Virus record (IMG/VR): IMGVR_UViG_3300042391_000634
Coordinates: 1-64,000 of that record
Source of the DNA: a virus
DNA: 64,000 bases
Strand: one strand, 5' to 3'
Shown: piece by piece, positions 4,515 to 48,676 of the stretch
How positions within the stretch are numbered: the stretch's first letter is position 1
Layout of the letters: the number at the start of each line of letters is the position of its first letter
Position numbers and translations under genes: made by a program
The notes under the pieces: model-generated
Told to the model about the DNA's origin: nothing
Databases searched by the model: none
What the model saw: the letters and a program-made list of their open reading frames with translations, nothing else

Positions 4515-5357
4515 ATGAGCGGATTAACAACAATTAAATTAAGTAGTGAAGATTTAAAGAAGGAACAAGAACGCCAAAGGAAACGAGGTAAATTGATACT
4601 TAAACAACTAAAAAAAGGTAAGGTTAAGGTTGTTGTTGGTCTATATGATGAAGATGGAACGGTTCCCGATATTATATTTCAATATCAAATACATGATGCG
4701 GAAGTTAAATCAATTGTTGATTATGCCAATGGAGATGTAAATTGTTTAATTATTTGTTTTTATGATGACATTGATATTTTTAACGAAGATGGTAGTGAAA
4801 TAACAGAAAAATTACCTCTTTGGTTAGTTTCAGAAATTGAGAACAAACTTGAAAAAAAGTTTGAACAATTCAATATTGAACTTAGATTTAACCAACAATC
4901 AGGCGGAGGGAAGAAACATATAGTTAATGAAGAAGTGAATGACGACGACCAAAGACTAATTAACAAAACTAGAGTTATTTATAAATTACTCAAAAAAGGT
5001 GGTAAAATGGGGTTCGACTCTGCACCATATTACCACGAAGTACATTGGACATTACCCAATAAATTTTACGTTAAAATTAAACATCATGATAAAAAGGATG
5101 CTGAACGTTATCAATTAAAAGTTGATAGTTATCCTATTTTATTGTTGAACACTGAAACTATAAATTACACCAAAACCAATGATAAACCATTGAGAAATGG
5201 TGAAAAACATTTAATTGCAGGTGAGATTACAACTCAATTTAAAAAATATGGAATAACTGTTTATTGGGGAGGAGAAGTTCCAAAATATTCTATTTTTAGT
5301 CCAAGATCAATATCTCCCGATGAAACGTATACTGAAGTAGACATCACTCCAAAATAA
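4515..5357 (+). CDS. Two-copy KALxKG-domain protein
   Basis: 280 aa. Two copies of a ~110-residue repeat that recurs through the window: a basic helix ending in LKKGK or LKKGG, beta strands with a YxLP-type turn, and a closing F(N/K)xFxI strand (FEQFNIELRF; FKKYGITVYW). Copy 1 spans ~20-125, copy 2 ~155-255. The linker has HIVNEEVNDDD, an (I/V)-N-E site like those in the paralogues. Unlike most relatives it lacks the MKLxDIxxE leader and starts MSGLTTIKLSSED. Function unknown; copies in eight proteins make it a lineage-specific expansion. Confidence 0.75.
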   Translation: MSGLTTIKLSSEDLKKEQERQRKRGKLILKQLKKGKVKVVVGLYDEDGTVPDIIFQYQIHDAEVKSIVDYANGDVNCLIICFYDDIDIFNEDGSEITEKLPLWLVSEIENKLEKKFEQFNIELRFNQQSGGGKKHIVNEEVNDDDQRLINKTRVIYKLLKKGGKMGFDSAPYYHEVHWTLPNKFYVKIKHHDKKDAERYQLKVDSYPILLLNTETINYTKTNDKPLRNGEKHLIAGEITTQFKKYGITVYWGGEVPKYSIFSPRSISPDETYTEVDITPK

Positions 5358-11132: not shown

Positions 11133-11133
11133 T

Positions 11134-12301: not shown

Positions 12302-12641
12302 ACCATTTAAATTCTTTTCAGGGATAAAAATACAATATATTCTAATAATCACCAAGGATACCGATACAACGTACAGCATCCCATTAGATATGTATGGACA
12401 TATAATGGAAGTTGCGGTGGGTTTACACAGGGAGAATATGATATTATTTTCACCAGTAGAGTATAGAGTAGAAAACGAAATTGGTGAGGGAGTAACTTAT
12501 TTCTATATGATAAATAATATTGTACCATATTTTAATATAACTAATAGAATAATGATAGAATATAGTGTAAAGTTTCCTGATACAGAATATTATTGTGATT
12601 TTACCACTCAAGAAAATATATCCTTATATGAAACCATTTAA
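12294..12641 (+). CDS. FKF-tag beta-rich protein
   Basis: 115 aa, starting MIKPFKFFSG. Body of alternating hydrophobic strands. Ends YETI, where the ETI-stop is read out of frame from the next gene's MKPFK codons. Confidence 0.75.
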   Translation: MIKPFKFFSGIKIQYILIITKDTDTTYSIPLDMYGHIMEVAVGLHRENMILFSPVEYRVENEIGEGVTYFYMINNIVPYFNITNRIMIEYSVKFPDTEYYCDFTTQENISLYETI

Positions 12642-12993
12642 GTTCTTCCAAAATAATATAAAAAGAAAATGGTATTTAAGGAGTGACCACCTCGGTCAAA
12701 TACAATGGATGTATAGACCTGTGGGGGTAATATTCTATATGGAAAATAGATGGGATGGAAATTTTTATACAGAGGAGATGAAGACAATGACGGTGACGGC
12801 TACAAGTAGATATATGTACTCATACAATCAGTTTATGGAAATGAATAGGGATAATATTATATTTGCATATGAATTCGTGGACAATGCAGATATAAGTAAT
12901 ATGATACATTATAACGAAGATAATTTTGATGATATGCCAAGGGATAGACGACTAATATTTAGAGGAGTAATAAGAAATAATGAAACCATTTAA
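12628..12993 (+). CDS. FKF-tag small protein
   Basis: 121 aa, starting MKPFKFFQNN. ATG 12628 was chosen for the tag; 14-base overlap with the upstream gene. Met- and Asn-rich body, ending NNETI for the same overlap reason. Function unknown. Confidence 0.75.
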   Translation: MKPFKFFQNNIKRKWYLRSDHLGQIQWMYRPVGVIFYMENRWDGNFYTEEMKTMTVTATSRYMYSYNQFMEMNRDNIIFAYEFVDNADISNMIHYNEDNFDDMPRDRRLIFRGVIRNNETI

Positions 12994-13453
12994 GTTCTTC
13001 CAAAAAGAAGATTATTTTCTTTCAATAGCAAGAAGAGGTGCGGGGAGAACCATCGCTCAAGACCTTGTGCCGGTTCAACCATTGGGCTCACCTGATAATG
13101 ACCTTCATATTCTTAGGAATTCACTATACGGTGCACTGCGTACAAGAGAATGTGCGGTAATTGCATCATCCATCCGAAATTTTAATAATTGGAGAAATGA
13201 AACATTTGACAGAAGTAGTGTTTTCATTATAACCAATAGAGATTTCACACATACTAATGGAAATAACAATCAAACCACAAGATACAGGGCAATAACGCGA
13301 ATTGATGATTGTTATGGACTAATGTTCGATGATTATATTTTAACGGATAGAATCCACGATATATTATCAAGCGGATATAATGAAACTATAGACCATATTC
13401 ACCAACTAGTTGATGAGGTTAACCTACACACAAGAAACAATGAAACCATTTAA
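12980..13453 (+). CDS. FKF-tag small protein
   Basis: 157 aa, starting MKPFKFFQKE. Body contains an Arg/Ala-rich helix and a NRDFTHTNGNNNQTTRYRAI stretch. Ends NNETI inside the next tag. Its first ~22 bases are nearly identical to those of the gene at 12628. Confidence 0.75.
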   Translation: MKPFKFFQKEDYFLSIARRGAGRTIAQDLVPVQPLGSPDNDLHILRNSLYGALRTRECAVIASSIRNFNNWRNETFDRSSVFIITNRDFTHTNGNNNQTTRYRAITRIDDCYGLMFDDYILTDRIHDILSSGYNETIDHIHQLVDEVNLHTRNNETI

Positions 13454-13745
13454 ATTTTTTAGAACCCCTTTTAACCCAAGACAATACGATCTTGATTCAT
13501 TTACATTCATCGGTGTTAGTCCCATTAAAACTCATGAAGATGTTCAAGGAAGGTATAGAACAATGATTTTTATGAATAATGATACACGTCTACCACTCAC
13601 TGGAAATTTAATACACGAACACGAGGAAGCATTCCATATGGCGGACATAATTGAAATAAGGGGAAATCAAATATTCCAATTACCAAGACAAGAGGCGGAA
13701 TATATAAACGTAACATTAACATTCACACCAAATGAAACCATTTAA
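13440..13745 (+). CDS. FKF-tag small protein
   Basis: 101 aa, starting MKPFKFFRTP. Mixed alpha/beta body, ending NETI inside the next tag. Function unknown. Confidence 0.75.
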   Translation: MKPFKFFRTPFNPRQYDLDSFTFIGVSPIKTHEDVQGRYRTMIFMNNDTRLPLTGNLIHEHEEAFHMADIIEIRGNQIFQLPRQEAEYINVTLTFTPNETI

Positions 13746-14037
13746 GTTCCTAACCAAACCAAATACAATCAATTACGAAGGTGAGTGGTCACGACATGTT
13801 ATTGGAATAGTTTATGATTATATTAACAATAGATATAGAGACACATATATATCAGAAACATTTGATGCTAAATATATTATTACCGAAACAACATATGAAC
13901 TCGGACAATTATCACGTGCTGTTGTTAAAGTATATCCTAATAGAGATACTAACATGATAATAACATATTGGGTAACCGTGGTAAACACATTTGCATTCAT
14001 AACACAACATAATGTTGAACACTATGCGACCATTTAA
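13732..14037 (+). CDS. FKF-tag beta-rich protein
   Basis: 101 aa, starting MKPFKFLTKPNTINYEGEW. Paralogue of the gene at 17167 (FKFLTKNDTINFHG start, same strand order, both with a YPxxxxNxMxTY segment). Ends YATI inside the next tag. Confidence 0.75.
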   Translation: MKPFKFLTKPNTINYEGEWSRHVIGIVYDYINNRYRDTYISETFDAKYIITETTYELGQLSRAVVKVYPNRDTNMIITYWVTVVNTFAFITQHNVEHYATI

Positions 14038-14260
14038 ATTCCTAAACGATAATAAGAAAGATGATTTTCTTATCCCAACGATGGATGAAATTGCTAACGC
14101 ATTAATTGTTGGAAGAGAAGCATATCTAAATGGACATCCGGTAGAATATAATCCTTTTTTAAGACAACAAACATTTGACGCATTTGACGAGGGATGGGAA
14201 TTAGAACATTCATATGATATATTAAGAGACGCACAACAAAGAGCAAACAATGGACTTTAA
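14024..14260 (+). CDS. FKF-tag protein with RMF-like motif
   Basis: 78 aa, starting MRPFKFLNDN. Body: LIVGREAYLNGHPVEYNPF followed by FDEGWELEHS, an RMF-type G..A...G....NPF...GW arrangement. The stop is read from the MDFKFF codons of the next gene. Confidence 0.7.
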   Translation: MRPFKFLNDNKKDDFLIPTMDEIANALIVGREAYLNGHPVEYNPFLRQQTFDAFDEGWELEHSYDILRDAQQRANNGL

Positions 14261-14582
14261 ATTCTTTCAAAAACCAAAACCAATACAACCACCAGGTAAT
14301 ATGTATCTGATGTTTAATATGGATGATGCTCTAATCAATGTGATAAGATGGTTACAATATCATAATTGGGAAATATTAAATAGTGAAACATATATGTCTC
14401 AGGTGAATGTACCAATCAATAATTGTTTTATAAGGATAACGAGTTGGAGAAGACATATTAATCCACCAATAAGAGTTCAAATAAAATATAGTGTGTTTGA
14501 AGCAAACACATTTTCAAGAAATTTCACATTTATTATGAATGAAGAAGAATTTTTAAGAAGAATAGATATAACAGGAATATGA
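14250..14582 (+). CDS. FKF-tag small protein
   Basis: 110 aa, starting MDFKFFQKPK, followed by a Pro-rich linker and an alpha/beta body with aromatic residues. ATGA overlap with the next gene. Confidence 0.75.
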   Translation: MDFKFFQKPKPIQPPGNMYLMFNMDDALINVIRWLQYHNWEILNSETYMSQVNVPINNCFIRITSWRRHINPPIRVQIKYSVFEANTFSRNFTFIMNEEEFLRRIDITGI

Positions 14583-14812
14583 TAAAAGAGTTTAAATTTT
14601 TAAGTAATAACAAATCAATAGGAACTAATACTATTCCATATCCTGATGATTTAGTATGTCCTTTAATGAGAGAGGTATATAAGGCTGGTTATTTATGTGC
14701 AATGGTGGGAAATCAGATAAGTGATAATCGTTACGCAAATACACAATATGCTTATATGTGGAATAGAGGTTGGATTGATTACCAAATGCAAACTGTAAAT
14801 GAGAGAGTTTAA
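14579..14812 (+). CDS. FKF-tag protein with RMF-like motif
   Basis: 77 aa, starting MIKEFKFLSN. Body: YKAGYLCAMVGNQISDNRY then MWNRGWIDYQ, matching RMF-type spacing. The stop lies in the next gene's REFKFL codons. Confidence 0.7.
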   Translation: MIKEFKFLSNNKSIGTNTIPYPDDLVCPLMREVYKAGYLCAMVGNQISDNRYANTQYAYMWNRGWIDYQMQTVNERV

Positions 14813-15122
14813 GTTCCTAAGAAATCCTTTATTAGTTACCATTGATGGGAAATCAATCTATCCGGGGACATTATTCTATAGTATGAATAAGATATGTATA
14901 ATATTACCAAGGAAGATAACACCCAAATATACAATAGTAACAAGATGTATCCATCCAATTTATAAGGATGTATTCAAACCTGATTACGATACATTAATGT
15001 ATTTCAGCACAAAAGAATCTGCCGAGTTCTATAAGAGTAGATTAATACATTGGGATGAACACGTTATTGGTGGTGAGGTATTCCATAACAACGCTGACAT
15101 AACATTAACATTTAGAAGATGA
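14799..15122 (+). CDS. FKF-tag small protein
   Basis: 107 aa, starting MREFKFLRNP. Beta-rich first half, then a FSTKESAEFYKSRL helix. ATGA-coupled to the next gene. Confidence 0.75.
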   Translation: MREFKFLRNPLLVTIDGKSIYPGTLFYSMNKICIILPRKITPKYTIVTRCIHPIYKDVFKPDYDTLMYFSTKESAEFYKSRLIHWDEHVIGGEVFHNNADITLTFRR

Positions 15123-15511
15123 TAAGACAATTTAAATTTTTATCGGGAGTGAAATCCATGTTGGATATGTATGGTAGAGAAATCAACTCAAATAACTATA
15201 GAACCATCAGTATAACCGGCAATATTCGTTTTCTAAAAGAATACCATAGAAGATTGGATTGTATTTATATTTCACATTATAATATGTTTAATGAATATCA
15301 TCCATTATTTAATGAATCGGTAGATTTATATAATAGAACGGTTGGATTTATAGAAGGAGGTCACATAACAACCCACGAAGAGATAAGGAGATTTGTTCAT
15401 AGCGCCTATTCAGATATGGTATATGGGATATTTGACCAGTATGAAATAGGTGGGGCAACAAATCAGGAGATATTAGTTGATACATATAACTTTATAAACC
15501 CAAGACGATGA
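15119..15511 (+). CDS. FKF-tag helical protein
   Basis: 130 aa, starting MIRQFKFLSG. Helical body with many Tyr and His. Last gene of the main FKF run. No known family recognised. Confidence 0.75.
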   Translation: MIRQFKFLSGVKSMLDMYGREINSNNYRTISITGNIRFLKEYHRRLDCIYISHYNMFNEYHPLFNESVDLYNRTVGFIEGGHITTHEEIRRFVHSAYSDMVYGIFDQYEIGGATNQEILVDTYNFINPRR

Positions 15512-15535
15512 TAAAGATTTTAAATACCTGAAGAT

Positions 15536-15545
15536 GATATTTATA
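15536..15545 (+). promoter_or_regulatory. Late-type motif GATATTTATA
   Basis: Exact motif, 4 bases before ATG 15550. Confidence 0.6.
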
Positions 15546-15549
15546 TAGG

Positions 15550-16395
15550 ATGAAATTAATGGATATATTATTAGAGGATTGGGAAGATGATTACCGAAAT
15601 GTATCTCATAAGCTTAAACTTATGTATAAATTACTTAGAGTAGGGTCGGTTAAAATTAGTAAATTAATACCTGATTTTGAGACACCATTTTGGACAGGAT
15701 TTGATTGGATTGAAGATGGTGATGCATTGATAACATATGAACTACCAAGCGAATATCATTTAATACCTGGTAGTATAACTAGCATATATAGAATAGTAAT
15801 AAGAGGTATAACTATTAATTGTGAAAAATATCCAGCGTTAGCTGATGACATAGATATTAGGGAAGATTTATTAAGATATATTTTACGTAGAATTGAAAAT
15901 TATCTAATACCTACACTCCAAGAGGGAGACGAAATTGAGTTTAGTATAAGAAAAAAACATGAAGAGAATATTATGTTTAAGAATGTCGTAAATGAAAGTG
16001 TTGTTGATGATAAAGAAAATGATTATGATACCGTTGTTAAAAAGGCACCAACAATTTTCAAAGCACTCAAGAAAGGTAAGATAACAATGGAGGTTGATGC
16101 AATAAGATTATTTTATCGAGGTGCAACGGACCCACAAAAATACACATTTGATTATGATTTAGGAGATGTATACATTGTTGAAACAGATCCATTTGAAAAT
16201 AACTACAATGTTAAAGTTTTAATACCGGCAATTAAAATTAACTGTGACGAAAACCCAAATTTAAATAATATTCAAACAATTAAAATGGACATTCTTAATA
16301 TTGTTAAGAAAAAATTTAACAACTTTGGATTGAACATTATTCTTAGAGCAACAAAATTTCGTTTAAAACATAATGGAAAGTGGATTATACCTTAA
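15550..16395 (+). CDS. Leader-bearing two-copy KALxKG-domain protein
   Basis: 281 aa. Leader MKLMDILLE then D, with L-L-E at residues 7-9. Copy 1 (~18-140) is divergent (YKLLRVGS ... YELPSEYHL). Copy 2 (~165-275) is typical (TIFKALKKGKI ... FNNFGLNIIL). The linker has FKNVVNESVVDD, a V-N-E site. Both leader and linker fit a T4-like (I/L/V)-x-E protease rule, so the product may be cut into two domains during head maturation (inference). Confidence 0.75.
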   Translation: MKLMDILLEDWEDDYRNVSHKLKLMYKLLRVGSVKISKLIPDFETPFWTGFDWIEDGDALITYELPSEYHLIPGSITSIYRIVIRGITINCEKYPALADDIDIREDLLRYILRRIENYLIPTLQEGDEIEFSIRKKHEENIMFKNVVNESVVDDKENDYDTVVKKAPTIFKALKKGKITMEVDAIRLFYRGATDPQKYTFDYDLGDVYIVETDPFENNYNVKVLIPAIKINCDENPNLNNIQTIKMDILNIVKKKFNNFGLNIILRATKFRLKHNGKWIIP

Positions 16396-16639
16396 TATAT
16401 AAATCCTCAGGTTTAGGTGGTTTTATTTCAAACACAACTGGTCTTTTCTTTTCCCATTTCTCTAAAATCTGTTGAGCCAAGGACACCATAGCCCTTTCAT
16501 AGTATTCCTCACCATATATTGGGACGATTATACTTTTATACATGTCTAATGTATCTGAAATGTTGAGACTATCAACTTTCTTTTTAACCGTGATGGTTTC
16601 ACTAAAATACTTATACGATAATGAGATTGGTATATTCAT
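16385..16639 (-). CDS. Small early-type protein
   Basis: 84 aa, starting MNIPISLSYKYFSETITV. Beta-type N-terminus, then a helix (ERAMVSLAQQILEKWEKK) and Pro-rich end. Expressed from its own leaderless host-type promoter against the direction of its neighbours. Function unknown. Confidence 0.7.
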   Translation of the reverse strand: MNIPISLSYKYFSETITVKKKVDSLNISDTLDMYKSIIVPIYGEEYYERAMVSLAQQILEKWEKKRPVVFEIKPPKPEDLYIKV

Positions 16640-16643
16640 TCCA

Positions 16644-16676
16644 CAAATATACTAGAATATTCTAGAATATCACAAA
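16644..16676 (-). promoter_or_regulatory. Bacteroidota-type promoter
   Basis: On the minus strand TTTG (16673-16676), 21 bases containing TTCTAGAATATTCTAG, TATATTTG (16644-16651), ending four bases before ATG 16639. Confidence 0.7.
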
Positions 16677-16681
16677 TAAAG

Positions 16682-16690
16682 TTATCCACA
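16682..16690 (+). promoter_or_regulatory. DnaA-box sequence TTATCCACA
   Basis: Perfect match to the classical DnaA box, just upstream of the -33 box of the minus-strand promoter at 16644-16676. Confidence 0.5.
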
Positions 16691-16739
16691 TTTAAAATCG
16701 TGTTTTTAAATCTCGAATATTTTTATTATATTTAATGAT

Positions 16740-17162
16740 ATGTTGTCTAAATTTAGATTTTTCAGGGGTATAGTTAGTGCAAGGATTGTCAGTATTGATG
16801 GTGCTTTAGAAAGACTAACAAGGACACCTGTTAGTCATATTCCAATACCCGATACTCTTACAACCTTAGTAGAGATACAACAATTTAGGGCAGGATGGAG
16901 ATCGTGTGAGTTTGGAAGAAACATATACGATAATCCATATAGTAATAGAGAAGCTCTAATATATTCATTACATAGAGCATGGGAATATGGATTTACTGAA
17001 TGTTTTAATAATAGAAGAGTTAATAGAGATGAAGAGGTTTATTTAGAAGGATGGGCGACAGCTCAATTAGGGTTACCATTAAATGAAAACCCACACACAT
17101 ATGGTTCAAACCAATTTAATATGTGGTATATAGGATGGAATGACTTTGTTGATAATCATTAA
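16740..17162 (+). CDS. FKF-tag protein with two RMF-like motifs
   Basis: 140 aa, starting MLSKFRFFRG. Two RMF-type units: FRAGWRSCEFGRNIYDNPY...AWEYGF (~45-85) and YLEGWATAQLGLPLNENPH...WYIGW (~100-135). A tandem tagged RMF-like protein is not something I know from described phages. Confidence 0.7.
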   Translation: MLSKFRFFRGIVSARIVSIDGALERLTRTPVSHIPIPDTLTTLVEIQQFRAGWRSCEFGRNIYDNPYSNREALIYSLHRAWEYGFTECFNNRRVNRDEEVYLEGWATAQLGLPLNENPHTYGSNQFNMWYIGWNDFVDNH

Positions 17163-17166
17163 AAAT

Positions 17167-17493
17167 ATGCGAGACTTCAAATTTCTTACCAAGAACGATA
17201 CAATAAACTTTCATGGACAAATGTCCATTGAAGCGCTCGGATATTTTGATGATTACGTTAATCGTATAATTAGATATGAAATCACAACAACAACCGCAAC
17301 ATATAAGATAGCAGATTACACTTATGGTGAAGGTAACGTTGTGGCGGGAACCGTCAACGCATATCCATTAGATGCTCCCAATATCATGGTCACCTACACT
17401 ATAAGGGGTGGAGAGATTACATCACATACAATACATATAGATTATTGGAATACGATGGGGCAATTGATAAATACAATAAGACGAGAGGATTAG
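17167..17493 (+). CDS. FKF-tag beta-rich protein
   Basis: 108 aa, starting MRDFKFLTKNDTINFHG; paralogue of the protein at 13732. ATG 17167 was chosen for the tag. Beta-rich body with a TATYKIADYTYG stretch. Confidence 0.75.
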   Translation: MRDFKFLTKNDTINFHGQMSIEALGYFDDYVNRIIRYEITTTTATYKIADYTYGEGNVVAGTVNAYPLDAPNIMVTYTIRGGEITSHTIHIDYWNTMGQLINTIRRED

Positions 17494-17532
17494 TCGGTAG
17501 CAATACTATAATACAATTCACCACGTTTATAA

Positions 17533-17542
17533 GATATTTATG
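17533..17542 (+). promoter_or_regulatory. Late-type motif GATATTTATG
   Basis: One mismatch to GATATTTATA, 3 bases before ATG 17546. Confidence 0.55.
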
Positions 17543-17545
17543 TAG

Positions 17546-18229
17546 ATGAAAATACAAGCATTATTCATCAGTGATGTCCACTTAGGTTCTAAAGGTTCAA
17601 ATGCAGAACAAGTCTTAGATTTACTCAAACAATATCAACCCGAATATCTATTCTTAGTTGGTGATATAATAGATGGATGGTTACTTAAACGTAGGTTCCG
17701 TTGGCCTCAATCACATACAAATGTATTAAGAAAGATAATGTCATATTCAAAGAACGGAACCAAAGTAATTTATATACCAGGAAATCACGATGAGTTCTTA
17801 AGAGAGTATGGTGAGTTTTCTTTCGGCAATATAGAAATACACAATGAATATGTATGGAATAATACTTTTATTACACACGGAGATTTATATGATGGTGTGG
17901 TTAAACTTAAATGGTTGGGTATCTTAGGGTCAATAGGTTATGATATGGCAATAACAATAGATAGAAAATTAAAGAAATTGGGAATGAAACGTTCTTTATC
18001 TAAGTTCTTAAAAGATAAGGTAAAGGAAGCTGTTAAATTCATTACACAATTTGAGGTGGAGTTAACCAGACAAGCAAAGAAACATCACTGTACATCCGTT
18101 ATATGTGGTCATATTCATCATCCTGAGGATAGAGATATTGATGGAATAAGATATTTAAATTGTGGGGATTGGATTGAGAACAATAGTTATATCATATACA
18201 ACAACAATGAATACACAGTCATTAAGTAA
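17546..18229 (+). CDS. LpxH-like metallophosphoesterase
   Basis: 227 aa, complete calcineurin-like phosphoesterase: ISDVHLGS (~9-16), VGDIIDGW, PGNHDE, THGDLYDG and CGHIHHPED, providing the two-metal ligands. The long helical insert after THGD matches the UDP-2,3-diacylglucosamine pyrophosphatase-like group found in Bacteroidota. Followed by an overlapping glycosyltransferase, so a lipid or cell-surface sugar substrate is plausible. No leader sequence. Confidence 0.85.
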   Translation: MKIQALFISDVHLGSKGSNAEQVLDLLKQYQPEYLFLVGDIIDGWLLKRRFRWPQSHTNVLRKIMSYSKNGTKVIYIPGNHDEFLREYGEFSFGNIEIHNEYVWNNTFITHGDLYDGVVKLKWLGILGSIGYDMAITIDRKLKKLGMKRSLSKFLKDKVKEAVKFITQFEVELTRQAKKHHCTSVICGHIHHPEDRDIDGIRYLNCGDWIENNSYIIYNNNEYTVIK

Positions 18230-18923
18230 TCAATTAACAATAGTCATTCCATCAAAGAATGAAAATAGAACGTTATATGATTGTATCTATAACATATCTA
18301 AACAAACCAACATTGCAGGGATAAAGATAATAATAGCAGATGTATCAGATGAAGAAGAATCTATATGGTATTTATGGAAATTACAATCGGACTTTAAATA
18401 TTCATTAAACATAGAGGTAATAGAAGGGGGATATCCATCTCAGGGAAGACTTAACGGATCAAAACTTGTAACAACCCCATATATGTTATTCTTGGATGCA
18501 GATATATTCTTAACCAATAAGGATATAATCGTGGAGTGTATGAAATATAAGAAGGACTTAATTACGGTCCCGTTTTATACGGATAAACCATACAGATGGG
18601 TATTCAGATTATTTGATATGTTCCAATCAATATCCTCGTTATTGGGAACTCCATTTGCTGTAGGAGGATTTCAGTTATGGAACACAAAGACGTATTGGGA
18701 AATAGGAGGATACAATCCAGAGGAGTTATTCGCAGAGGACTATTCGTTATCAAAGATGGTTATGTCAAAGAACTTTAAGGTGGTTAATATAAAAGGAACA
18801 TACACATCACCAAGACGATTTAAATCTAAGGGTGTATTATGGATGTTCAATATAATGATTAAATCTTATCTCAATAGAAACAACCCATCCTTTTTTAAAC
18901 AGACCCACAACTATTGGACATAA
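18207..18923 (+). CDS. Family 2 glycosyltransferase
   Basis: 238 aa from ATG 18207, overlapping the phosphoesterase gene by 23 bases. GT-A fold: LTIVIPSKNENRTL start, FLDADIFLT (DxD) near residue 85, and GGYNPEELFAEDYSLS (ED acceptor motif). No long membrane segment. Probably modifies host surface or virion glycans together with the upstream enzyme. Confidence 0.85.
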   Translation: MNTQSLSNQLTIVIPSKNENRTLYDCIYNISKQTNIAGIKIIIADVSDEEESIWYLWKLQSDFKYSLNIEVIEGGYPSQGRLNGSKLVTTPYMLFLDADIFLTNKDIIVECMKYKKDLITVPFYTDKPYRWVFRLFDMFQSISSLLGTPFAVGGFQLWNTKTYWEIGGYNPEELFAEDYSLSKMVMSKNFKVVNIKGTYTSPRRFKSKGVLWMFNIMIKSYLNRNNPSFFKQTHNYWT

Positions 18924-18934
18924 CTATTTCATGG

Positions 18935-18944
18935 GATATTTATA
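18935..18944 (+). promoter_or_regulatory. Late-type motif GATATTTATA
   Basis: Exact motif, 6 bases before ATG 18951. Confidence 0.6.
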
Positions 18945-18950
18945 AAGGTA

Positions 18951-19784
18951 ATGAAATTATTAGATATTATAAAAGAAGATGTGAGGTACTTTAAGAAAGA
19001 AGAACCTAGTGAGGAAAAGAGGGTAAAAACCATTTTCAAAGCACTTAGAAATGGTATTGTAAAGGTTCCACACCCAAGGACAAACAACATCATCAAGTTT
19101 AGATATCATATAAGTGATAATGTATTTTATAGATGGGAAAATTATATGAGTGAGAAGTGCCTTACTATCATTACCAGCAACTTCCCTGAAGAAGGTATAA
19201 CCATTTACTGTGATGATAAAGATGTGATAGATATGTGTACAAATAACACAGAATCTATCTCAAAGAACCCAACTGGTATTCATCTAAGGGAAATGTTCAT
19301 GAATAAACTTAAAAATAGATTCAATAAATTTCAGGTTAGTTTTTATGTTAATAAACAAGGTATGAAGTTTGTTTTAGAAGAACCAACCGAACTAATCAAT
19401 GAGAATGAAGAGGACGATAGAATAATAAAAAAGGTAGGGGTAATATTCAAAGCTCTTAATAAAAAAATGTATCGTGAGAACAAAGATTTTAAGTTTTATT
19501 TTGTTCTTCCCGATAAATTTAAGGTTTTATTAAATGATACCCCCGAAATAGAACGGCACAGACAAATTAGAAGAGAATATGGTTTTTTATATGTTCAGGT
19601 GGGAAATGATGGTGAAAACAATGATGTTAAATTCTACTATAAAAAAGAAGGTGATTATGAATTAAATAGATTAAATATCAATACAAATGATCAGTATAAT
19701 TATAACCTGTTTATTGTTAACGAAAAGTTTAAACCATTTAATATAAAACTAATATATAAAAATAGAGCAGGCAAGTGGGAATAA
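18951..19784 (+). CDS. Leader-bearing two-copy KALxKG-domain protein
   Basis: 277 aa. Leader MKLLDIIKE then D (I-K-E). Copy 1 (~25-135): TIFKALRNGIV ... FNKFQVSFYV. Copy 2 (~160-270): VIFKALNKKMY ... FKPFNIKLIY. The linker has ELINENEEDD (I-N-E). Last codon overlaps the next gene's start, another KALxKG protein. Confidence 0.75.
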   Translation: MKLLDIIKEDVRYFKKEEPSEEKRVKTIFKALRNGIVKVPHPRTNNIIKFRYHISDNVFYRWENYMSEKCLTIITSNFPEEGITIYCDDKDVIDMCTNNTESISKNPTGIHLREMFMNKLKNRFNKFQVSFYVNKQGMKFVLEEPTELINENEEDDRIIKKVGVIFKALNKKMYRENKDFKFYFVLPDKFKVLLNDTPEIERHRQIRREYGFLYVQVGNDGENNDVKFYYKKEGDYELNRLNINTNDQYNYNLFIVNEKFKPFNIKLIYKNRAGKWE

Positions 19785-20830
19785 TGAAATTAATAGACAC
19801 ACTTAGTGAGGATGAGGAGAAAAAATTAATCAAGAAGGCCAAGTTAATTTTTTCTATATTAAAGAAGGGAACAATCACTCGTAGAGATGGTGTGTCATTT
19901 AGTTATGAGCTCAAGGATAATATGGTCCCAAGAATCGTAAAAGGTGAGGTAGAGATAAGTGCGTTCATTACCGAGATCATAGAAAGAACCTACTGTCCTA
20001 TCAATGAACATGCGATGAAAGATTTAATTATGGACAAATTCAATCACTTCAATATTAATGCAAATTTATATTATACTTCCAATAGTCATGTAGAGAAATA
20101 CAAAGGAAAGAAACCGTGGGAAGAACAAAGGGAACTAAACGAATCCAAAGAGGATAACGAAAAACTTATAAAGAAGGTTAAGACCATTTATAAAGCCATA
20201 AGTGGTAGTATTATTCGTAAAGGACATTTCGGTAATATTACATATGAATTACCTCGTGAATATGATATTCAAATAGATGTAAATGACGATCCTTTTGTAA
20301 AGGTCGGTAGGAATGGGACAGACAATGAGATTAAATTCTATTATGTCGATGGTACAAGTGGTGAAGTTAAACAATATAGGTTAAACAACCACGAATATCA
20401 TTTATTTGTAAGAGAGATAGAAAGACGTAAGTTTAAACCGTTTAATATTGTATTATGGTATGAACCAAATGAGAACGTGATTCAACCTATAAATGAGGCT
20501 CTAATGAGGTATACAGAAGATGATTTAACCGACAAGGACAGGAAGAAAGTTAAACTTATATATGATTTATTTAAAACGGGGAGGTATATAGATGATGATA
20601 CGAAATATGAATATGTTCTTCCTGATGAGTATTATGTATCCATAGATGATGAAACGGGAATGCCTGTTGTTGTATTAACGATGAATCCGTCACAGACATT
20701 AGATTTATATATGGTTTTAACCAATACATATATTCCTAAGGTAGATAAAGAATACAATAACTTATATAAGGATACAAAGAGAAGAATTAAAGAGAAGTTT
20801 AATAATTTTAACATAGATATTATATTTTAA
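19784..20830 (+). CDS. Leader-bearing three-copy KALxKG-domain protein
   Basis: 348 aa. Leader MKLIDTLSE then D (L-S-E). Three copies at ~15-110, ~130-230 and ~250-348, each ending in F(N/K)xFNI. Both linkers carry a predicted site: RELNESKEDN (L-N-E) and QPINEALMRY (I-N-E). This is the clearest polyprotein-like case. The third copy is the most divergent (LIYDLFKTGRY). Confidence 0.75.
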   Translation: MKLIDTLSEDEEKKLIKKAKLIFSILKKGTITRRDGVSFSYELKDNMVPRIVKGEVEISAFITEIIERTYCPINEHAMKDLIMDKFNHFNINANLYYTSNSHVEKYKGKKPWEEQRELNESKEDNEKLIKKVKTIYKAISGSIIRKGHFGNITYELPREYDIQIDVNDDPFVKVGRNGTDNEIKFYYVDGTSGEVKQYRLNNHEYHLFVREIERRKFKPFNIVLWYEPNENVIQPINEALMRYTEDDLTDKDRKKVKLIYDLFKTGRYIDDDTKYEYVLPDEYYVSIDDETGMPVVVLTMNPSQTLDLYMVLTNTYIPKVDKEYNNLYKDTKRRIKEKFNNFNIDIIF

Positions 20831-20858
20831 TGTAAAGATTTATGTGTATATTATACAA

Positions 20859-21473
20859 ATGAGAGTTTTAATCCTAACACACCCAAGAAGCGGGGGAATG
20901 TCCTTAATGAATTATATTCAGAAAGAATTAGATTACAATCAATATCATGAACCATTTTTCGACAATCTAAGTCACGGTTTAACTGATGAAGATATCAATA
21001 CAAAATTATTAGTAGAAGATAACATAGTGGTTAAAGACTTTCCATTTCTTATTAAAGAAAGGGGGTATGATATTAATGATGTGATATCTAAATTCGATAA
21101 GGTAATTATTCACCATAGAGGTAATCATAGAGATGTGGCAATTAGTTTAACCTATTTTCAATATGGATATGGTAGTAATTTACATGAAACATATAAAGTA
21201 ACGGACGAATGGATAAAGGATAATGAGGATAAGATAGAACAAATGATGGTGAATACGAATGAAATGTTCAATACAATTGAAAATATGAAGAATGAGGGGT
21301 GTCTAAGAACAAGTTACGATGGGATATATAACGATAAATCAGATGTACCAAGACTATTAAAGTATCTAAACATATATAGCCCGATTTATTTAGACATATT
21401 AGATAAAAGACACAAATTACAAAATGGGGAGGTAGGAATGGGTAATGTTAAGATTAGACCAAAATTAATATGA
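20859..21473 (+). CDS. Sulfotransferase-like protein
   Basis: 204 aa from ATG 20859. Begins RVLILTHPRSGGMSLMNYI, the P-loop-like PAPS 5'-phosphosulfate signature of sulfotransferases, and has IIHHRGNHRDVAIS resembling the 3'-phosphate motif (R...S). Shorter than typical enzymes (~250-300 aa). Substrate unknown; perhaps a glycan. Confidence 0.6.
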   Translation: MRVLILTHPRSGGMSLMNYIQKELDYNQYHEPFFDNLSHGLTDEDINTKLLVEDNIVVKDFPFLIKERGYDINDVISKFDKVIIHHRGNHRDVAISLTYFQYGYGSNLHETYKVTDEWIKDNEDKIEQMMVNTNEMFNTIENMKNEGCLRTSYDGIYNDKSDVPRLLKYLNIYSPIYLDILDKRHKLQNGEVGMGNVKIRPKLI

Positions 21474-21483
21474 TATTTTTGAT

Positions 21484-21492
21484 ATATTTATA
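21484..21492 (+). promoter_or_regulatory. Late-type motif ATATTTATA
   Basis: GATATATTTATA, a form with two extra bases, 5 bases before ATG 21498. Confidence 0.5.
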
Positions 21493-21497
21493 AAGAC

Positions 21498-21947
21498 ATG
21501 AAGTTATTAGATATAGTAAGAGAAGAGGAAGATAAACAGAATTATCTTATTAAACAAAGAAAAAAGGTTAGACATATACACTCAGCACTAAAAAGGGGTA
21601 AAATTACTATAGATAATATACAATATAACTATGTTCTTGGTAATGATTTTGATATTGATGTTATATATCGTAACGGGTATGAGGAAACAGAGGTTAGGTT
21701 TAAGGAAGAAATGTTAACACCAAAATATAGAGATAAGATTTTAAAATTATATAAGGTTAATCCTGATGGGGAGGAAGAATATGTTCCTTATGGACATACT
21801 ATGAAGTCTTATAAAGAATATTATCATGCTATGAAATTTGATAATCCAACATATGAATCTGCGTGGGATATAATTAAAGATAAGTTTAAAAATTTTAGAA
21901 TACGTATATATCCTTTTAACGTTACTCAAACTAACCTTGATTTATAA
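21498..21947 (+). CDS. Leader-bearing single KALxKG-domain protein
   Basis: 149 aa. Leader MKLLDIVRE then E (V-R-E), followed by one domain (HIHSALKRGKI ... FKNFRIRIYP). Start follows a late-type motif. Confidence 0.7.
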   Translation: MKLLDIVREEEDKQNYLIKQRKKVRHIHSALKRGKITIDNIQYNYVLGNDFDIDVIYRNGYEETEVRFKEEMLTPKYRDKILKLYKVNPDGEEEYVPYGHTMKSYKEYYHAMKFDNPTYESAWDIIKDKFKNFRIRIYPFNVTQTNLDL

Positions 21948-21951
21948 AGAC

Positions 21952-22311
21952 ATGAAACTATTAGATATACTTAACGAGGATGCTGAGGTGGACGTTCCAA
22001 AAGAGAAACGTAGGGTTAAAACCGTATTCAAGGCATTAAGGAAAGGGGTTATGTTTGTTCCATTTCTCGGATATAAGATTAAATATGAACTTAATAACGA
22101 CTACCAATTAAGTGTAGGGATAGGTAAAAGTCATAATGACACCATTTTATTTGTTCCATCAGATGATAAGACACCAAAGATAAAGTTATATGAGATTGGT
22201 TCTGACGGGGTGGAAAGATATTTCGAGGTAAATGGATATGACTCCATATATCAACTGATGTGGCAAAAAATATCAGAGAGATTCAAACATTTCCACATAC
22301 ATCTAAGATAA
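21952..22311 (+). CDS. Leader-bearing single KALxKG-domain protein
   Basis: 119 aa from ATG 21952. Leader MKLLDILNE then D (L-N-E). One domain: TVFKALRKGVM ... YELNNDYQL ... FKHFHIHLR. Preceded by the weak late-type motif TGATTTATA. Confidence 0.7.
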   Translation: MKLLDILNEDAEVDVPKEKRRVKTVFKALRKGVMFVPFLGYKIKYELNNDYQLSVGIGKSHNDTILFVPSDDKTPKIKLYEIGSDGVERYFEVNGYDSIYQLMWQKISERFKHFHIHLR

Positions 22312-25589: not shown

Positions 25590-26513
25590 TTAATAATCTA
25601 TACCGAAGTTCCCGAAACGAGTTCTTAGAAATGAACGGAATTCTGATTGTTCTTCTTCAGACAGAGGTGAATCCGAAGGAGAGTTCTTTTTACCATCAAC
25701 TATCTCCCACCCAAAATTGGCTGCAACCGTGAACTCAGGATGTAATACTTTGTCTTGTTTGTTGTATGAATTATAATCTTGATGAACAATAAACCCTGCC
25801 TTTTTAACGTCGTAATCACTCAACTCATATGTATGACCTTTCCAAGTTCCCTTTCTAAGAGCTAGAAATACTGTATGGGCTTTCTTAAGTAACTTCTTCA
25901 TATATGGTCCATAGTCATCCGAGAAGGTTGGAAGGTCTGTTGGGGATAATTTATATGTTGATAACAATAGTGACCTTGAAAATAATATATTACCAAGTGG
26001 ACGTGGAGCCGAAACCTTTGTGTTCCATATGTGGTTCTCCATCATGTCCTTTAAGTGAAATATACCCCTCAATGGAAATACATTGATACGTTGTATCTTA
26101 ATGTCATACATGTCCAACAAACTTGTTGGAAAGATAGACGGTTTATCCCTAAGGTCAGGATTAATCTTTATCAAACTATCCACAAAGTCCTCCATACATA
26201 TTGTTAACAAATTTGTTGGGATGACTGGTGTTGAATCCATGTTTGGCATAAAGTCAATATCACATGTAATCTCCCCCAGTACACCTTCTTTGAATCTTTC
26301 TGGTGTGAATGGTATCTCTTCTATACGGATTGAATTATGAATCTCACCCTCGGGAACGATTAGGGTCTTCCAAAAGATATGGTCACTTCTATATTTCTTC
26401 AGGGTCTGAACCAATTTCTCGTTGGACCTTCTTTCAGATTTGAGCTCATCGTTATCGGATGGGATATCTGAAGGTATTGTTTCGTCCTGTTCTCTTAGTT
26501 TACTTAATTTCAT
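25590..26513 (-). CDS. Leader-bearing protein with C-terminal KALxKG domain
   Basis: 307 aa from ATG 26513, chosen because the late-type motif lies just upstream. Leader MKLSKLREQDE (L-R-E) is a variant. Residues ~10-190 are unrelated to the repeat family. The C-terminal ~110 residues form one KALxKG domain (VFLALRKGTW ... YELSDYDV ... FGNFGIDY). Suggests the domain is a movable module joined to other bodies. Confidence 0.65.
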   Translation of the reverse strand: MKLSKLREQDETIPSDIPSDNDELKSERRSNEKLVQTLKKYRSDHIFWKTLIVPEGEIHNSIRIEEIPFTPERFKEGVLGEITCDIDFMPNMDSTPVIPTNLLTICMEDFVDSLIKINPDLRDKPSIFPTSLLDMYDIKIQRINVFPLRGIFHLKDMMENHIWNTKVSAPRPLGNILFSRSLLLSTYKLSPTDLPTFSDDYGPYMKKLLKKAHTVFLALRKGTWKGHTYELSDYDVKKAGFIVHQDYNSYNKQDKVLHPEFTVAANFGWEIVDGKKNSPSDSPLSEEEQSEFRSFLRTRFGNFGIDY

Positions 26514-26516
26514 GTA

Positions 26517-26526
26517 TATAAATATT
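26517..26526 (-). promoter_or_regulatory. Late-type motif AATATTTATA (minus strand)
   Basis: Read on the minus strand, 3 bases before ATG 26513. Confidence 0.55.
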
Positions 26527-26635
26527 GCCAAACAATATTGACAGTGGATTCCTCCTCAAGGTTTATTTTTTTGCCAAACAATATTCGAGTCATCGTCTTC
26601 TGAGTTACTTTACTATTGACTGTCTACTGTAAACA

Positions 26636-41169: not shown

Positions 41170-41718
41170 ATGAAATTAGTGTCGGTCTTAAATGAAGTTT
41201 TGAATATAGGGAGTGGAGAGAGAATACATGTCTCTAACAACCCTATGCAGGAACTACGTGACCTAACCGCACAGAACGGTGTTCCTTCTGATAATAGACC
41301 TATAGGTAAACCTGATGGGTTTTGGTATGCATTCGGTGATAGTTGGTTATATTGGACATCTATGAATATGTCAACTAAAAATTACGAACATGCATATAAG
41401 GTTATTGTTGATAGGTCCAAAATAGTATCCATACGTAATCAGGATATGTTAGATGATTTTAACCGTGAATTTACATATGAAACGGATAGTAAATATATGC
41501 CGTATTTAGTAGATTGGGTTAAGGTATCTCAAAAATATTCAGGGTTTGAAATTCCAGCTTATGATGACCTTGAAATTAGTGGAGATAGATATATCATACG
41601 AAATAGATGGTTATTAAATTGGGACATTCCCTCAGGTGTTATATGGAACCCCAATGCTGTATTGAAACTAAAACCATTGGGTAATCCTAATACACTCAAA
41701 CAACCAAGAAAGAATTAA
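41170..41718 (+). CDS. Leader-bearing ADP-ribosyltransferase-like protein
   Basis: 182 aa. Leader MKLVSVLNE then V (L-N-E). The body has KPDGFWYAFGDSWLYWTSM, a YKVIVDRSKIVSI strand, VDWVKVSQKYSGFEIPAYDD and WDIPSGVIWNPNAV, matching a widespread phage and bacterial family that resembles ADP-ribosyltransferase folds. One base after the previous stop. T4 packages ADP-ribosyltransferase Alt by a similar type of leader, so virion delivery is plausible. Confidence 0.6.
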   Translation: MKLVSVLNEVLNIGSGERIHVSNNPMQELRDLTAQNGVPSDNRPIGKPDGFWYAFGDSWLYWTSMNMSTKNYEHAYKVIVDRSKIVSIRNQDMLDDFNREFTYETDSKYMPYLVDWVKVSQKYSGFEIPAYDDLEISGDRYIIRNRWLLNWDIPSGVIWNPNAVLKLKPLGNPNTLKQPRKN

Positions 41719-42493: not shown

Positions 42494-42937
42494 ATGAAAC
42501 TAATGGACCTGTTAACTGAGAATACTAATGAACCAAGAGTTGTATATTTTAATACTCCCGATGGTTATAGTGGTTCACCGGAAGACCATAAGATGATTAA
42601 GAAGATGAAAACCATCTATAAGGCCCTATCTAAGGGTCGTGGTGAGGTTCAGGTACATCATGGTGATAATTACCCTCCCCTTGATTTATCCTACGAATTA
42701 CCCCCTTTAAACACCGTTGCAATCCTTATTGACTATCCCACTAAGAAACAACTTAAGAATGGTGCCGAAATTGCTTATACGTTTGATGTTGTCGGTAAGG
42801 TGAAATACACCCTCCATAACTTTGAAACACAACGAGATACCGATATTGATAGATTTATGATGCATAAGGGACATGAAATATCGTTTGTCTATAAAAAGAG
42901 ATTTGAAGACTTTGATATTGGTATCACCAGTTCTTAA
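42494..42937 (+). CDS. Leader-bearing single KALxKG-domain protein
   Basis: 147 aa. Leader MKLMDLLTE then N (L-T-E). One domain: TIYKALSKGRGEV ... YELPPLNTV ... FEDFDIGITS. A ~25-residue spacer separates leader and domain. Distant from the main KALxKG cluster at 15-22 kb. Confidence 0.7.
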   Translation: MKLMDLLTENTNEPRVVYFNTPDGYSGSPEDHKMIKKMKTIYKALSKGRGEVQVHHGDNYPPLDLSYELPPLNTVAILIDYPTKKQLKNGAEIAYTFDVVGKVKYTLHNFETQRDTDIDRFMMHKGHEISFVYKKRFEDFDIGITSS

Positions 42938-44062: not shown

Positions 44063-44069
44063 TGTGTAT

Positions 44070-45380
44070 ATGAAATTAATTGATATTATATTTGAGAGTG
44101 TTGTTGATTTATCTGAAGTAGTAACTAAAGATGAGTTTATTAAAAGGGCACAACAAGTTCATAAGGATGAAAACGGTAATCCAAAATATAGATATAACAA
44201 TGTTATTTATAAGAACACTAGAGTTCCTATAACTGTTACATGTCCAAAACATGGAGACTTTACGGTGTCTCCTGATAATCACACAAGAGGTAGAGGTTGT
44301 AAAATGTGTGGATATGAAAGTACATCTAAAAAGAAAAGAATGACAAAAGATGAGTTTGTTAAAAAAGCACAACAAGTTCATAAGGATGAAAACGGAAACC
44401 CTTCATACAATTACGATAAGGTAAATTATACAACAGGTAGAGTAAAAGTTCCTATCACATGCCCAATACACGGAGATTTTCTTATTGCACCTAATAGTCA
44501 TTTAGCCAATCATGGATGTCCAAAATGTGGATGGAAAAGGTTGGCACTAGTTAAATCTGATACTAAAGACAATTTCGTTAAAAAAGCGGAACAAATTCAT
44601 AAAGATGAGAATGGAAACCCCATGTATGTTTATAATGACGTAACTTATAAAAATGCCATGACAAAGGTCGATATTACTTGTCCAATACATGGAAATTTTA
44701 ATATGAGTCCAAATGCACATTTAGTGGGTCAAAAATGTCCAAAGTGTTCATTAATCAATAGGTCTAATTTAAGGAGATTCACAAAAGATGAGTTTATTAA
44801 AAGAGCACAACAATCAAATAAAGACGATAATGGAAATCCACTATACACATATGATAATGTAAATTATCATAATACTACTGAGAAAGTGAATATTACTTGT
44901 CCTATACACGGAGATTTTCTAATGTCACCTCAATCTCACTTAATAGGTTCAGGATGTTCTAAATGTAGTGAATCAAAAGGGGAGAAATCAATTAGAAAAC
45001 ATTTAAAAGAAATGAATATCACATTTAACTCACAAGAGAGATTTGGTAGTTGTTTTTCTGTAGGAGAAAAAAGTAAAAGATGTTATAAACTTCCTTTTGA
45101 CTTTTTCATACCAAACATAAAAACCGCAATTGAGGTCGATGGTACTCCACATTTCCAACCTAAATTCGGAGAGGAACAACTTAACTCAACAATATTCAAC
45201 GATAAAATAAAAAATAAATTTGTTAAATCGTCTAATCAAATTAATAAATTAATTAGGTTATATTATGATGGAAAAAATATGGATGAATTAATTTCAGAAT
45301 TAAATCGTCTTCTCAAAGAAAAAACATCTAACAAAATAGTTTTATCTAAAGGTTACCCTAAAGGGGGTTGGAACAAATAA
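44070..45380 (+). CDS. Leader-bearing nuclease with four zinc-finger repeats
   Basis: 436 aa from ATG 44070. Leader MKLIDIIFE then S (I-F-E). Four ~65-residue repeats follow, each with a T(K)DEFI(K)KAQQVHKDENGNP-type start and a C-x-x-HGDF...GCxxC treble clef (DUF723-like). The C-terminal domain has FDFFIPNIKTAIEVDGTPHF, a Vsr/PD-(D/E)XK core (D...E-x-D-G). The layout matches homing-type nucleases; the leader suggests loading into the capsid. Confidence 0.8.
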   Translation: MKLIDIIFESVVDLSEVVTKDEFIKRAQQVHKDENGNPKYRYNNVIYKNTRVPITVTCPKHGDFTVSPDNHTRGRGCKMCGYESTSKKKRMTKDEFVKKAQQVHKDENGNPSYNYDKVNYTTGRVKVPITCPIHGDFLIAPNSHLANHGCPKCGWKRLALVKSDTKDNFVKKAEQIHKDENGNPMYVYNDVTYKNAMTKVDITCPIHGNFNMSPNAHLVGQKCPKCSLINRSNLRRFTKDEFIKRAQQSNKDDNGNPLYTYDNVNYHNTTEKVNITCPIHGDFLMSPQSHLIGSGCSKCSESKGEKSIRKHLKEMNITFNSQERFGSCFSVGEKSKRCYKLPFDFFIPNIKTAIEVDGTPHFQPKFGEEQLNSTIFNDKIKNKFVKSSNQINKLIRLYYDGKNMDELISELNRLLKEKTSNKIVLSKGYPKGGWNK

Positions 45381-46927: not shown

Positions 46928-46934
46928 TGTGTAT

Positions 46935-48152
46935 ATGAAATTATTAGACATTATATTTGAAAATAAACCTCGTAATGAAAAATCAGATGAAGATTTAAAA
47001 AGAGAGTTGATAAGTAGTCCGAATACAACTGGATTAACATTTGATAATGCTAAATTTATATATAACTCACAACAAAAAAGATATCAAATAACAAATTATT
47101 CTTGTAAATCACACCCCACGTGGTTCAAAGATGGATGGTCCAGAGTAAGTCAAGTTATGGATGGTAGAGCCACATGTGCGGAATGTGCGAAATTAAAACA
47201 AAGGAACAGGCTTGATAAAGAAAGATTAGAAAAAAATGAATTAATAAAAAAATTAGCAGAAAAATACGGTGACCAATTTAAAGAAAAAGAACCCTTATTA
47301 TATGCTGACGGTATTGCAAATAAAATTATTGAACCAAAAAGAAAAAGACCAGGTGAATGGACGGCGAAGGAGATTGAGGATATTGCAGATAACTACACAG
47401 ACTTAAACGATTTTTTTAATAAAGAAAATGCGGCGTATCAAATGGCAGTTAAAATGGGAATAAAAGACCATATAGTTGCACATATGAGTCTTAAAAGACG
47501 TAATTTATCATTTGAAGATATACAAAAAATGGCCGAACCTTTTAAACATAAAATTGAATTTTCAAGAAACGATCCTGCGGCCTATAGAACGGCATATGAC
47601 AATGGGTGGATTGATAAAATTAAAGAGTGGATACCATTAGGTAATAAAGAAAAAAGAATGGTTTACGCTTATGAATTTTATGATAAAAAAGGAAATCCAT
47701 TAGCGATATATGTTGGTTTAACATTAAATGAAGATAGAAGAGGTAAAGAACATAGGGGTCAATGGGTTTCCCGTTCTGGAAAAGAATCTCCGGTTTATAG
47801 ATATATTATAGATAATAAGTTAAAACCAATTTATAAAGTATTGTCAAATGGATACATTCCTTACAAAGAAGCCATTGATATGGAATGTTATTATCAAAAT
47901 GATTTTTATAAAAAAGACAAACACGAAGATGGTTCTTTAGTTTGGAAACCTTTACATAGTGTAAAATGTGGTGGTCTCGGAGGATTCATAAAATGGACTG
48001 AAGAAAAATTAAGAAAGGAAGTGTCAAAATATGAAACACTAAAAGATTTTACCAAATATTCTGGTGGAGCCCCAAGTGCAGCAAAACGATTGGGTATATA
48101 TTATGATTTAATAAAAAATTTAAGTAGAAGGGGAAATATTAATATAAAATAA
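46935..48152 (+). CDS. Leader-bearing GIY-YIG-like endonuclease
   Basis: 405 aa from ATG 46935. Leader MKLLDIIFE then N (I-F-E). N-terminal Cys pair region (CKSHPTW ... CAECAK), helical 'AAYxxAxxxGxx' repeats, then from ~240 a GIY-YIG-type core: MVYAYEFYDKKGNPLAIYVG with LTLNEDRRGKEHRG (Arg, His) and a later Glu/Tyr region (DMECYYQND). The C-terminus returns to the repeat type. Homing-nuclease architecture plus a capsid-type leader. Confidence 0.75.
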   Translation: MKLLDIIFENKPRNEKSDEDLKRELISSPNTTGLTFDNAKFIYNSQQKRYQITNYSCKSHPTWFKDGWSRVSQVMDGRATCAECAKLKQRNRLDKERLEKNELIKKLAEKYGDQFKEKEPLLYADGIANKIIEPKRKRPGEWTAKEIEDIADNYTDLNDFFNKENAAYQMAVKMGIKDHIVAHMSLKRRNLSFEDIQKMAEPFKHKIEFSRNDPAAYRTAYDNGWIDKIKEWIPLGNKEKRMVYAYEFYDKKGNPLAIYVGLTLNEDRRGKEHRGQWVSRSGKESPVYRYIIDNKLKPIYKVLSNGYIPYKEAIDMECYYQNDFYKKDKHEDGSLVWKPLHSVKCGGLGGFIKWTEEKLRKEVSKYETLKDFTKYSGGAPSAAKRLGIYYDLIKNLSRRGNINIK

Positions 48153-48154: not shown

Positions 48155-48676
48155 ATGAAACTACAAGACATATTATTAGAGAAGTTAAGGGACATGGTGT
48201 CAATCCCAATCTACCATCATACCACAGAAGAACGTGCTTTAGGTATTATGAATAGTAATATGTTGACAGGGTCAAAACAATATGAGGAGGTTTTAAATTT
48301 AGATAGGGTATTAAAACAATCCAAACATAAAACAATGGTTTCTTTTACTCGTGATAAGAACTTTATACCGGATGGGTCTATTGGCAATTCTGGTGACGGT
48401 CCTCGTATTAAACCCGATATGTTGAACGTAATCTTTGTTGCAGATAGAAGTCGTCTTAAAACACGTTATAGAGTGGTTCCATTTGATTATGGAACAATTG
48501 CAAATAAAGCATGGATGGACGAAATACCTCGTAGTCGTAAAAATCCAGAAGTGGAGGAAAGAGTATTAACTGATAGAATATATCCATTAAGACAATATCT
48601 TACAAACATCATTTATACAGGTCAAGATCCTGAGGTACAAAAGAAGATAGATGAATATCTATCTGGAATTAAGTAA
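48155..48676 (+). CDS. Leader-bearing ADP-ribosyltransferase-like protein
   Basis: 173 aa. Leader MKLQDILLE then K (L-L-E). IYHHTTEERALGIMNSNMLT, VSFTRDKNF, LNVIFVADRSRLK and EVEERVLTDRIYPL appear in the order expected of ART-fold proteins (His/Arg, S-x-T/R, Glu). Two bases after the GIY-YIG gene and probably co-expressed. Activity and target unknown. Confidence 0.6.
   Translation: MKLQDILLEKLRDMVSIPIYHHTTEERALGIMNSNMLTGSKQYEEVLNLDRVLKQSKHKTMVSFTRDKNFIPDGSIGNSGDGPRIKPDMLNVIFVADRSRLKTRYRVVPFDYGTIANKAWMDEIPRSRKNPEVEERVLTDRIYPLRQYLTNIIYTGQDPEVQKKIDEYLSGIK

Follow-up and report, generated by a model that had tools for sequence, protein, structure and literature searches.

Tandem copies of a small domain separated by prohead protease-like sites suggest head-targeted polyproteins in a T4-type giant phage

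Introduction

Why would a tailed DNA phage repeat one small domain in tandem, and why do the junctions between the copies end in the same short motif? This question is raised by a gene family in the first 64,000 bases (1–64000; the window, meaning the whole stretch that was analyzed) of a 335,630-base IMG/VR virus record of a T4-type giant phage. An initial annotation of the window had counted about 13 copies of a ~110-residue domain in eight proteins and proposed that one protease removes their leader and separates the domains. Herein, the domain, its linkers, the candidate protease and the relatives of the family are described. The best explanation, and quite probably the correct one, is that these proteins are head-targeted polyproteins, which the prohead protease would cut into cargo that is ejected with the DNA.

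Architecture of the repeated domain

The domain spans ~105 residues and occurs in 13 copies (12 firm, one weak) in eight proteins, as determined by an HMM and a leave-one-out HMM search, which bears out the initial count; the same searches found no copy outside these eight proteins in the 335.6-kb record. The proteins are named by the lower coordinate of their gene, and the arrow marks the predicted cut.

4515..5357, + strand: candidate two-domain polyprotein without MKLLDI leader; domain 1, 4566–4898; site IVNE↓E, ends 4931; domain 2, 4947–5282
15550..16395, + strand: candidate two-domain polyprotein; leader MKLMDILLE, 15550–15576; weak domain 1, 15592–15933; site VVNE↓S, codon ends 15996; domain 2, 16024–16359
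18951..19784, + strand: candidate two-domain polyprotein; leader MKLLDIIKE, 18951–18977; domain 1, 19002–19358; site LINE↓N, ends 19403; domain 2, 19413–19766
19784..20830, + strand: candidate three-domain polyprotein; leader MKLIDTLSE, 19784–19810; domain 1, 19817–20083; site ELNE↓S, ends 20143; domain 2, 20156–20476; site PINE↓A, ends 20497; domain 3, 20528–20827
21498..21947, + strand: single-domain protein; leader MKLLDIVRE, 21498–21524; domain, 21546–21929
21952..22311, + strand: single-domain protein with a relative at 84% identity in L022; leader MKLLDILNE, 21952–21978; domain, 21994–22308
25590..26531, − strand: larger protein with one C-terminal copy, 25593–25901 (leave-one-out E 6e-5); leader-like N-terminal start MKLSKLRE near 26490–26513
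42494..42937, + strand: single-domain protein, the family member most closely kept in relatives; leader MKLMDLLTE, 42494–42520; domain, 42584–42934

A profile of candidate segments scored the eight proteins far above the rest of the phage's ORF set. Because this first profile contained its own targets, the search was repeated with each protein and its near relatives removed from the profile, and all eight were recovered (E 4e-34 to 6e-5), with the best outsider at ~0.01 or worse. The weak copy is copy 1 of the 15550 protein, with a leave-one-out domain E of 0.1. The N-terminal half of the 25590 protein may be a further degenerate copy of uncertain homology, a call that is not independent, because the first model already contained this half.

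Twenty-nine copies taken from four phage records were aligned, with low identity between copies (mostly 20–30%), and the alignment served as input to an AlphaFold model. For domain 3 of the 19784 protein, the prediction is confident (pLDDT 91, pTM 0.81) and shows a helix, six strands, a long helix and a strand. For the whole three-domain protein, domain 2 and the linkers are poorly resolved, and the linkers are not to be judged from that model. A Foldseek search with the pLDDT 91 model against PDB and BFVD gave no match at E<=0.001; matches to PriB/SSB-type folds in the PDB (E >0.5, query TM <0.3) were not significant and were discarded. The eight proteins have no match at E<=1e-3 in Pfam and PHROG, the PDB sequence search with the domain returned no match and no family, and no homology was found between the mature parts and known internal head protein families in Pfam, PHROG and PDB sequences. 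Likewise, the initial annotation had not recognized the domain. According to the model, it is a real folded unit outside the recognized families of the libraries searched.

Sites between the domains

[ILV]-N-E is present in each of the five window linkers, namely HIVNE↓E, NVVNE↓S, ELINE↓N, RELNE↓S and QPINE↓A. Over three phages, the motif is found in 10 of 11 linkers, of which about seven are independent and three sets are homologous; the remaining linker has LSE, and [LIV]xE is present in 11/11. The genome-wide rate predicts [ILV]NE in 0.47 of 11 linkers. Inside the domains, it occurs three times in 3,171 residues (linkers versus domains, Fisher p 1.8e-8); the two in the window are CPINE in domain 1 of the 19784 protein, also kept in G002, and FIVNE in domain 2 of the 18951 protein. 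When each linker's own residues were shuffled 20,000 times, 5/5 or 10/11 was never reached, and the window's five linkers alone have a chance of ~5e-6 by shuffles. Chance and composition as the source of the motif are ruled out by these within-linker shuffles. The sites are kept in related phages though the surrounding linker sequence differs.

The initial annotation had described the linkers as V/I/L-N-E followed by a small or acidic residue and as having the form of the leader end ILNE. The motif itself holds in every window linker, and the following residue is small or acidic in four of the five, with N in the 18951 protein. ILNE ends only one leader, that of the 21952 protein; the other leaders end in ILLE, IIKE, TLSE, IVRE and LLTE, and what leaders and linkers share is [ILV]-x-E. 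The codons of the sites vary synonymously, which indicates that the constraint acts on the protein; a DNA recombination site was dropped as an explanation for the same reason.

The prohead protease and the capsid maturation site

The head genes lie in a block at 117–133 kb of the record:

117763: large terminase-like protein, presumed from its sequence
119593: portal-like protein, likewise presumed from its sequence
122913–123596: S77 (T4 gp21-type) prohead protease (PF03420, E 5e-21, above the cut-off)
124028: scaffold-like protein, named by position and make-up
124971–126746: gp23-family capsid protein (PF07068, E 2e-63)
127141–127536: capsid-adjacent protein

The capsid protein reads ASYLINE↓AAVADASG at residue 60, and 81/81 capsid proteins of the clade show LINE↓A/S where maturation cleavage is expected. 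The predicted propeptide thus has 60 residues versus 65 in T4, where gp21, which cleaves after L/I-X-E, shortens gp23 by 65 residues (PMC9026906). The capsid-adjacent protein shows L-N/V/Q/I-E↓A in 64/65 sequences, and in the scaffold of the clade, [IMLV]-x-E is conserved at several sites, in most of them with N before E. From their position and from what is known of T4, we infer that these motifs are cut points. Since an S77 gene is present and the capsid site is LINE↓A/S in all 81 proteins, the prohead protease is the natural candidate for the linkers, which look like the clade's own prohead protease sites, including the N before E. The residue after the linker site is often D/E/N/Q and at the capsid site A/S.

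The same motif would also arise if the domains stayed joined like beads on a string and [ILV]NE were the leader remnant of a tandem gene fusion. The obvious way for the tandem proteins to arise is by fusion of genes that carry leaders, adjacent genes overlap or abut, and fused and stand-alone forms coexist. However, the linkers retain the final three residues only and never MKLLDI, despite sequence loss elsewhere, and the site persists in homologous linkers whose surrounding residues have diverged (RELNE/EEVNE/WELSE; ELINE/EPINE). Moreover, position P2 is free in the leaders (L, K, S, R, N, T; mostly without N), whereas it is N in 10/11 linkers, as at the capsid site. An uncut chain is, hence, unlikely, though it is the most serious competitor of cleavage in the prohead.

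Leader sequences

Leaders that begin with MK and end in [ILV]xE are found on seven of the eight family proteins, that of the 25590 protein being divergent; the 4515 protein has none. An exact-pattern scan of IMG/VR for MKLxDIxNE gave 89 stretches, and the 60 complete proteins among them form 29 families without similarity past the leader. The window itself holds such leaders on unrelated proteins, one of them of the HNH-endonuclease family and others that fall into no family:

41170..41718, + strand: leader MKLVSVLNE
44064..45380 (also 44010–45380), + strand: leader MYMKLIDIIFE; DUF723 repeats; four treble-clef-like repeats; similarity to HNH endonucleases (HNH-endonuclease family phrog_559, E 5e-67)
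46929..48152, + strand: leader MYMKLLDIIFE
48155..48676, + strand: leader MKLQDILLE

The capsid-targeting sequence (CTS) of T4 is a 10-residue leader that starts with MK, has a hydrophobic-x-E end and is sufficient to pack foreign proteins into heads. Because the leader described here sits on unrelated bodies and resembles the T4 CTS, MKLLDIxxE is best read, by functional analogy, as a capsid-targeting sequence. This resemblance bears on a further alternative, namely that a host protease or another phage protease cuts the motif after synthesis and that the proteins act in the infected cell and not in the head. The distance of the family genes (in the window) from the head block at 117–133 kb fits such a scenario, but the site has the same form as the maturation site of this phage's capsid protein, which is found in 81/81 relatives, and the position, length and ending of the leader are those of the T4 CTS; we regard it as very improbable. 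That one protease acts on both leader and linkers, as initially proposed, is supported at the sequence level by the encoded S77 protease, the match between capsid site and linkers, the conservation of the linker sites and the equivalence of leader and linker described below.

Several further features were observed. The leader-bearing 48155 protein has an HHTTEERA stretch and a sub-threshold resemblance to an ADP-ribosyltransferase (Tox-ART-HYD1, E 0.05); in T4, an ADP-ribosyltransferase (Alt) is packed in the head. Leaders of a second type, ITESQLKxIIxE, are found on many unrelated proteins (window 42979, 45693, 48689, 50098(−), 59156, 60120(−) and 61021(−); record 127536(−) and 219153). The body of the 69751 protein (LTYHHFVVKLPYY) has the first-type leader MIKFSDLLVE here in G000 and the ITESQLK type in its G036 relative, as if the leader types had been swapped. 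A zinc-ribbon stretch, CGWxWxxSxxGxxPYxCHKCG, lies between leader and body in the protein at 59156–59584 and in G026 (241598, 244498) and is missing in relatives; in the 59156 protein it ends with VNE and resembles a further cuttable module.

In addition, ~25 small proteins with mostly unrelated bodies share only an N-terminal M..FKF(F/L).(G/K), which is probably a third kind of N-terminal tag. They are encoded in the window at 3678–17493 (~21 ORFs), where their genes are interleaved with those of the domain family, elsewhere in the record (300400–303399, 323393) and in G002. One FKFF-type protein (L018; record 302925–303215(−)) has a piece of the major capsid protein as its body (57 residues matching capsid residues 349–405, E 3e-15). 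A similar capsid-piece protein is present in G026 (8682–9068), and window 12980–13453 weakly resembles another capsid stretch.

Exchange of modules and spread among relatives

Two related records (L021/G001 and L022/G002) encode four-domain proteins. Domain 2 of the 19784 protein, which is internal and follows RELNE, shares 61% identity with a G001 protein that stands alone and starts with MKLMDILLE. Domain 1 of the 18951 protein, which follows the leader MKLLDIIKE, shares 67.5% identity with domain 2 of the G002 four-domain protein; the latter domain sits behind WELSE. At both junctions, the similarity has a z of 22–24 directly after the E and ~0 before it. Because the similarity halts at the site, the modules look as if they were exchanged from cut site to cut site, and because homologous domains follow a leader in one phage but a linker in another, the two contexts appear to be treated as equivalent. 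In the 19784 protein and its G001 and G002 counterparts, the first domain and first linker correspond and are followed by three different second domains, which suggests that a module extends between two successive sites.

The domain was found in six contigs only. It was not found in 45/48 related records searched, some of them 233–288 kb in size and most of them fragments, and therefore looks lineage-restricted. No relative was found in GTDB genomes or in a GenBank phage set, and strict-pattern scans of IMG/VR, with single domains and whole proteins, yielded few relatives; the pattern match L024 from IMG/VR belongs to an unrelated phage and was set aside.

These features also bear on whether the cut pieces are cargo at all. 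Leaders and domains could be scaffold-like parts that are cut, but then degraded or released from the prohead, as in T4, where gp22, gp67 and gp68 have many such cut sites and mostly exit the head; several sites are also present in the clade's scaffold protein. Unlike scaffold, the domains are folded and almost free of sites, and unlike assembly genes, the family is narrow, fast-changing and shuffled. In addition, the same leader is carried by nuclease-like and other proteins. A scaffold-like fate is, accordingly, improbable.

Proposed mechanism

From the domains, the sites and their conservation, the exchange and the presence of the protease, all read from sequence, we infer packaging, cleavage, ejection and a role in the host as follows. 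The 9-residue N-terminal leader MKLLDIxxE would carry the precursor into the core of the assembling prohead. The S77 prohead protease, once mature, would cut after [LIV]-x-E and take off the leader; in multi-domain precursors, the [ILV]-N-E linkers would be cut as well, giving separate domains. The computed site-bounded pieces have 107–146 residues (12.6–17.1 kDa), and these freed domains would be packed with the DNA and then ejected into the host. By fusion, one leader could import between two and four distinct domains at equal copy number, which would save tags and fix ratios. The unit of gain, loss and transfer between phages would be the module that runs between two cut sites. The placement of the sites between domains and the module exchange fit such a precursor. 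The in-domain motifs CPINE and FIVNE, the permissive residue after the predicted cut, the LSE linker and the 4515 protein, which has no leader, speak against it.

That the family is narrowly spread and shuffled, with copies of low identity, points to a role under rapid change, e.g. in takeover or anti-defense, as for IPI of T4. By this analogy with T4 internal proteins, the domains may be diversifying takeover or anti-defense factors in a new host, a tentative assignment to which we give slightly less than an even chance. It seems reasonably likely that the phage is a DNA phage with true head-cargo polyproteins, combining one tag, interchangeable effector modules, cutting in the prohead and trade of cassettes. 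If so, one address tag delivers several interchangeable proteins together; polyprotein logic would operate in a tailed DNA phage, with delivery in a fixed ratio, and would explain the diversification of cargo. The form of the leader and the [LIV]NE ends would then provide sequence rules that predict which uncharacterized proteins of giant phages travel in the head.

Comparison with known systems

Internal head proteins tagged singly with a CTS in T4-type phages, propeptides removed by prohead proteases and head paralog families of giant phages are already known. Tandem copies split by protease sites and site-to-site exchange of modules were not found in the literature searched: the open-access literature gave no precedent for a prohead protease that cleaves phage polyproteins, and a precedent elsewhere is possible.

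Like IPI, IPII, IPIII and Alt of T4, the proteins described here have an MK-leader of ~10 residues that ends in hydrophobic-x-E and is common to unrelated cargo. They also resemble the T4 internal proteins in being small and poorly conserved and in the (here predicted) removal of the leader by a gp21-type protease. In contrast, the leader sequence is MKLLDIxxE, the domain is without Pfam match, and several copies with cut sites between them are fused per precursor, an arrangement that the literature searched does not describe for the T4 internal proteins.

The head paralogs of phiKZ and SPN3US (SPN3US gp53/gp54; the 20-member family B) represent a similar expansion in giant phages with plastic numbers, and some of them lose propeptides to the prohead protease, also via several cuts. 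However, their propeptides are mostly long (111–254 residues), the site is A-X-E and a single mature protein results from each gene; no match by sequence was found between the domain and these paralogs. T4 gp22, gp67 and gp68 have several L/I-x-E sites for the prohead protease, as predicted here, but are cut to peptides that mostly leave the head, whereas whole folded domains lie between the sites described here.

Finally, polyvalent proteins of phages and conjugative elements likewise contain several domains per polypeptide and are believed to be carried along with the DNA and, in some cases, to undergo processing (PMC5512222). They combine different domains, and an internal peptidase domain is credited with the processing (PMC5512222). 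In the present family, by contrast, one type of domain is repeated, and the candidate for the processing is the protease of the capsid.
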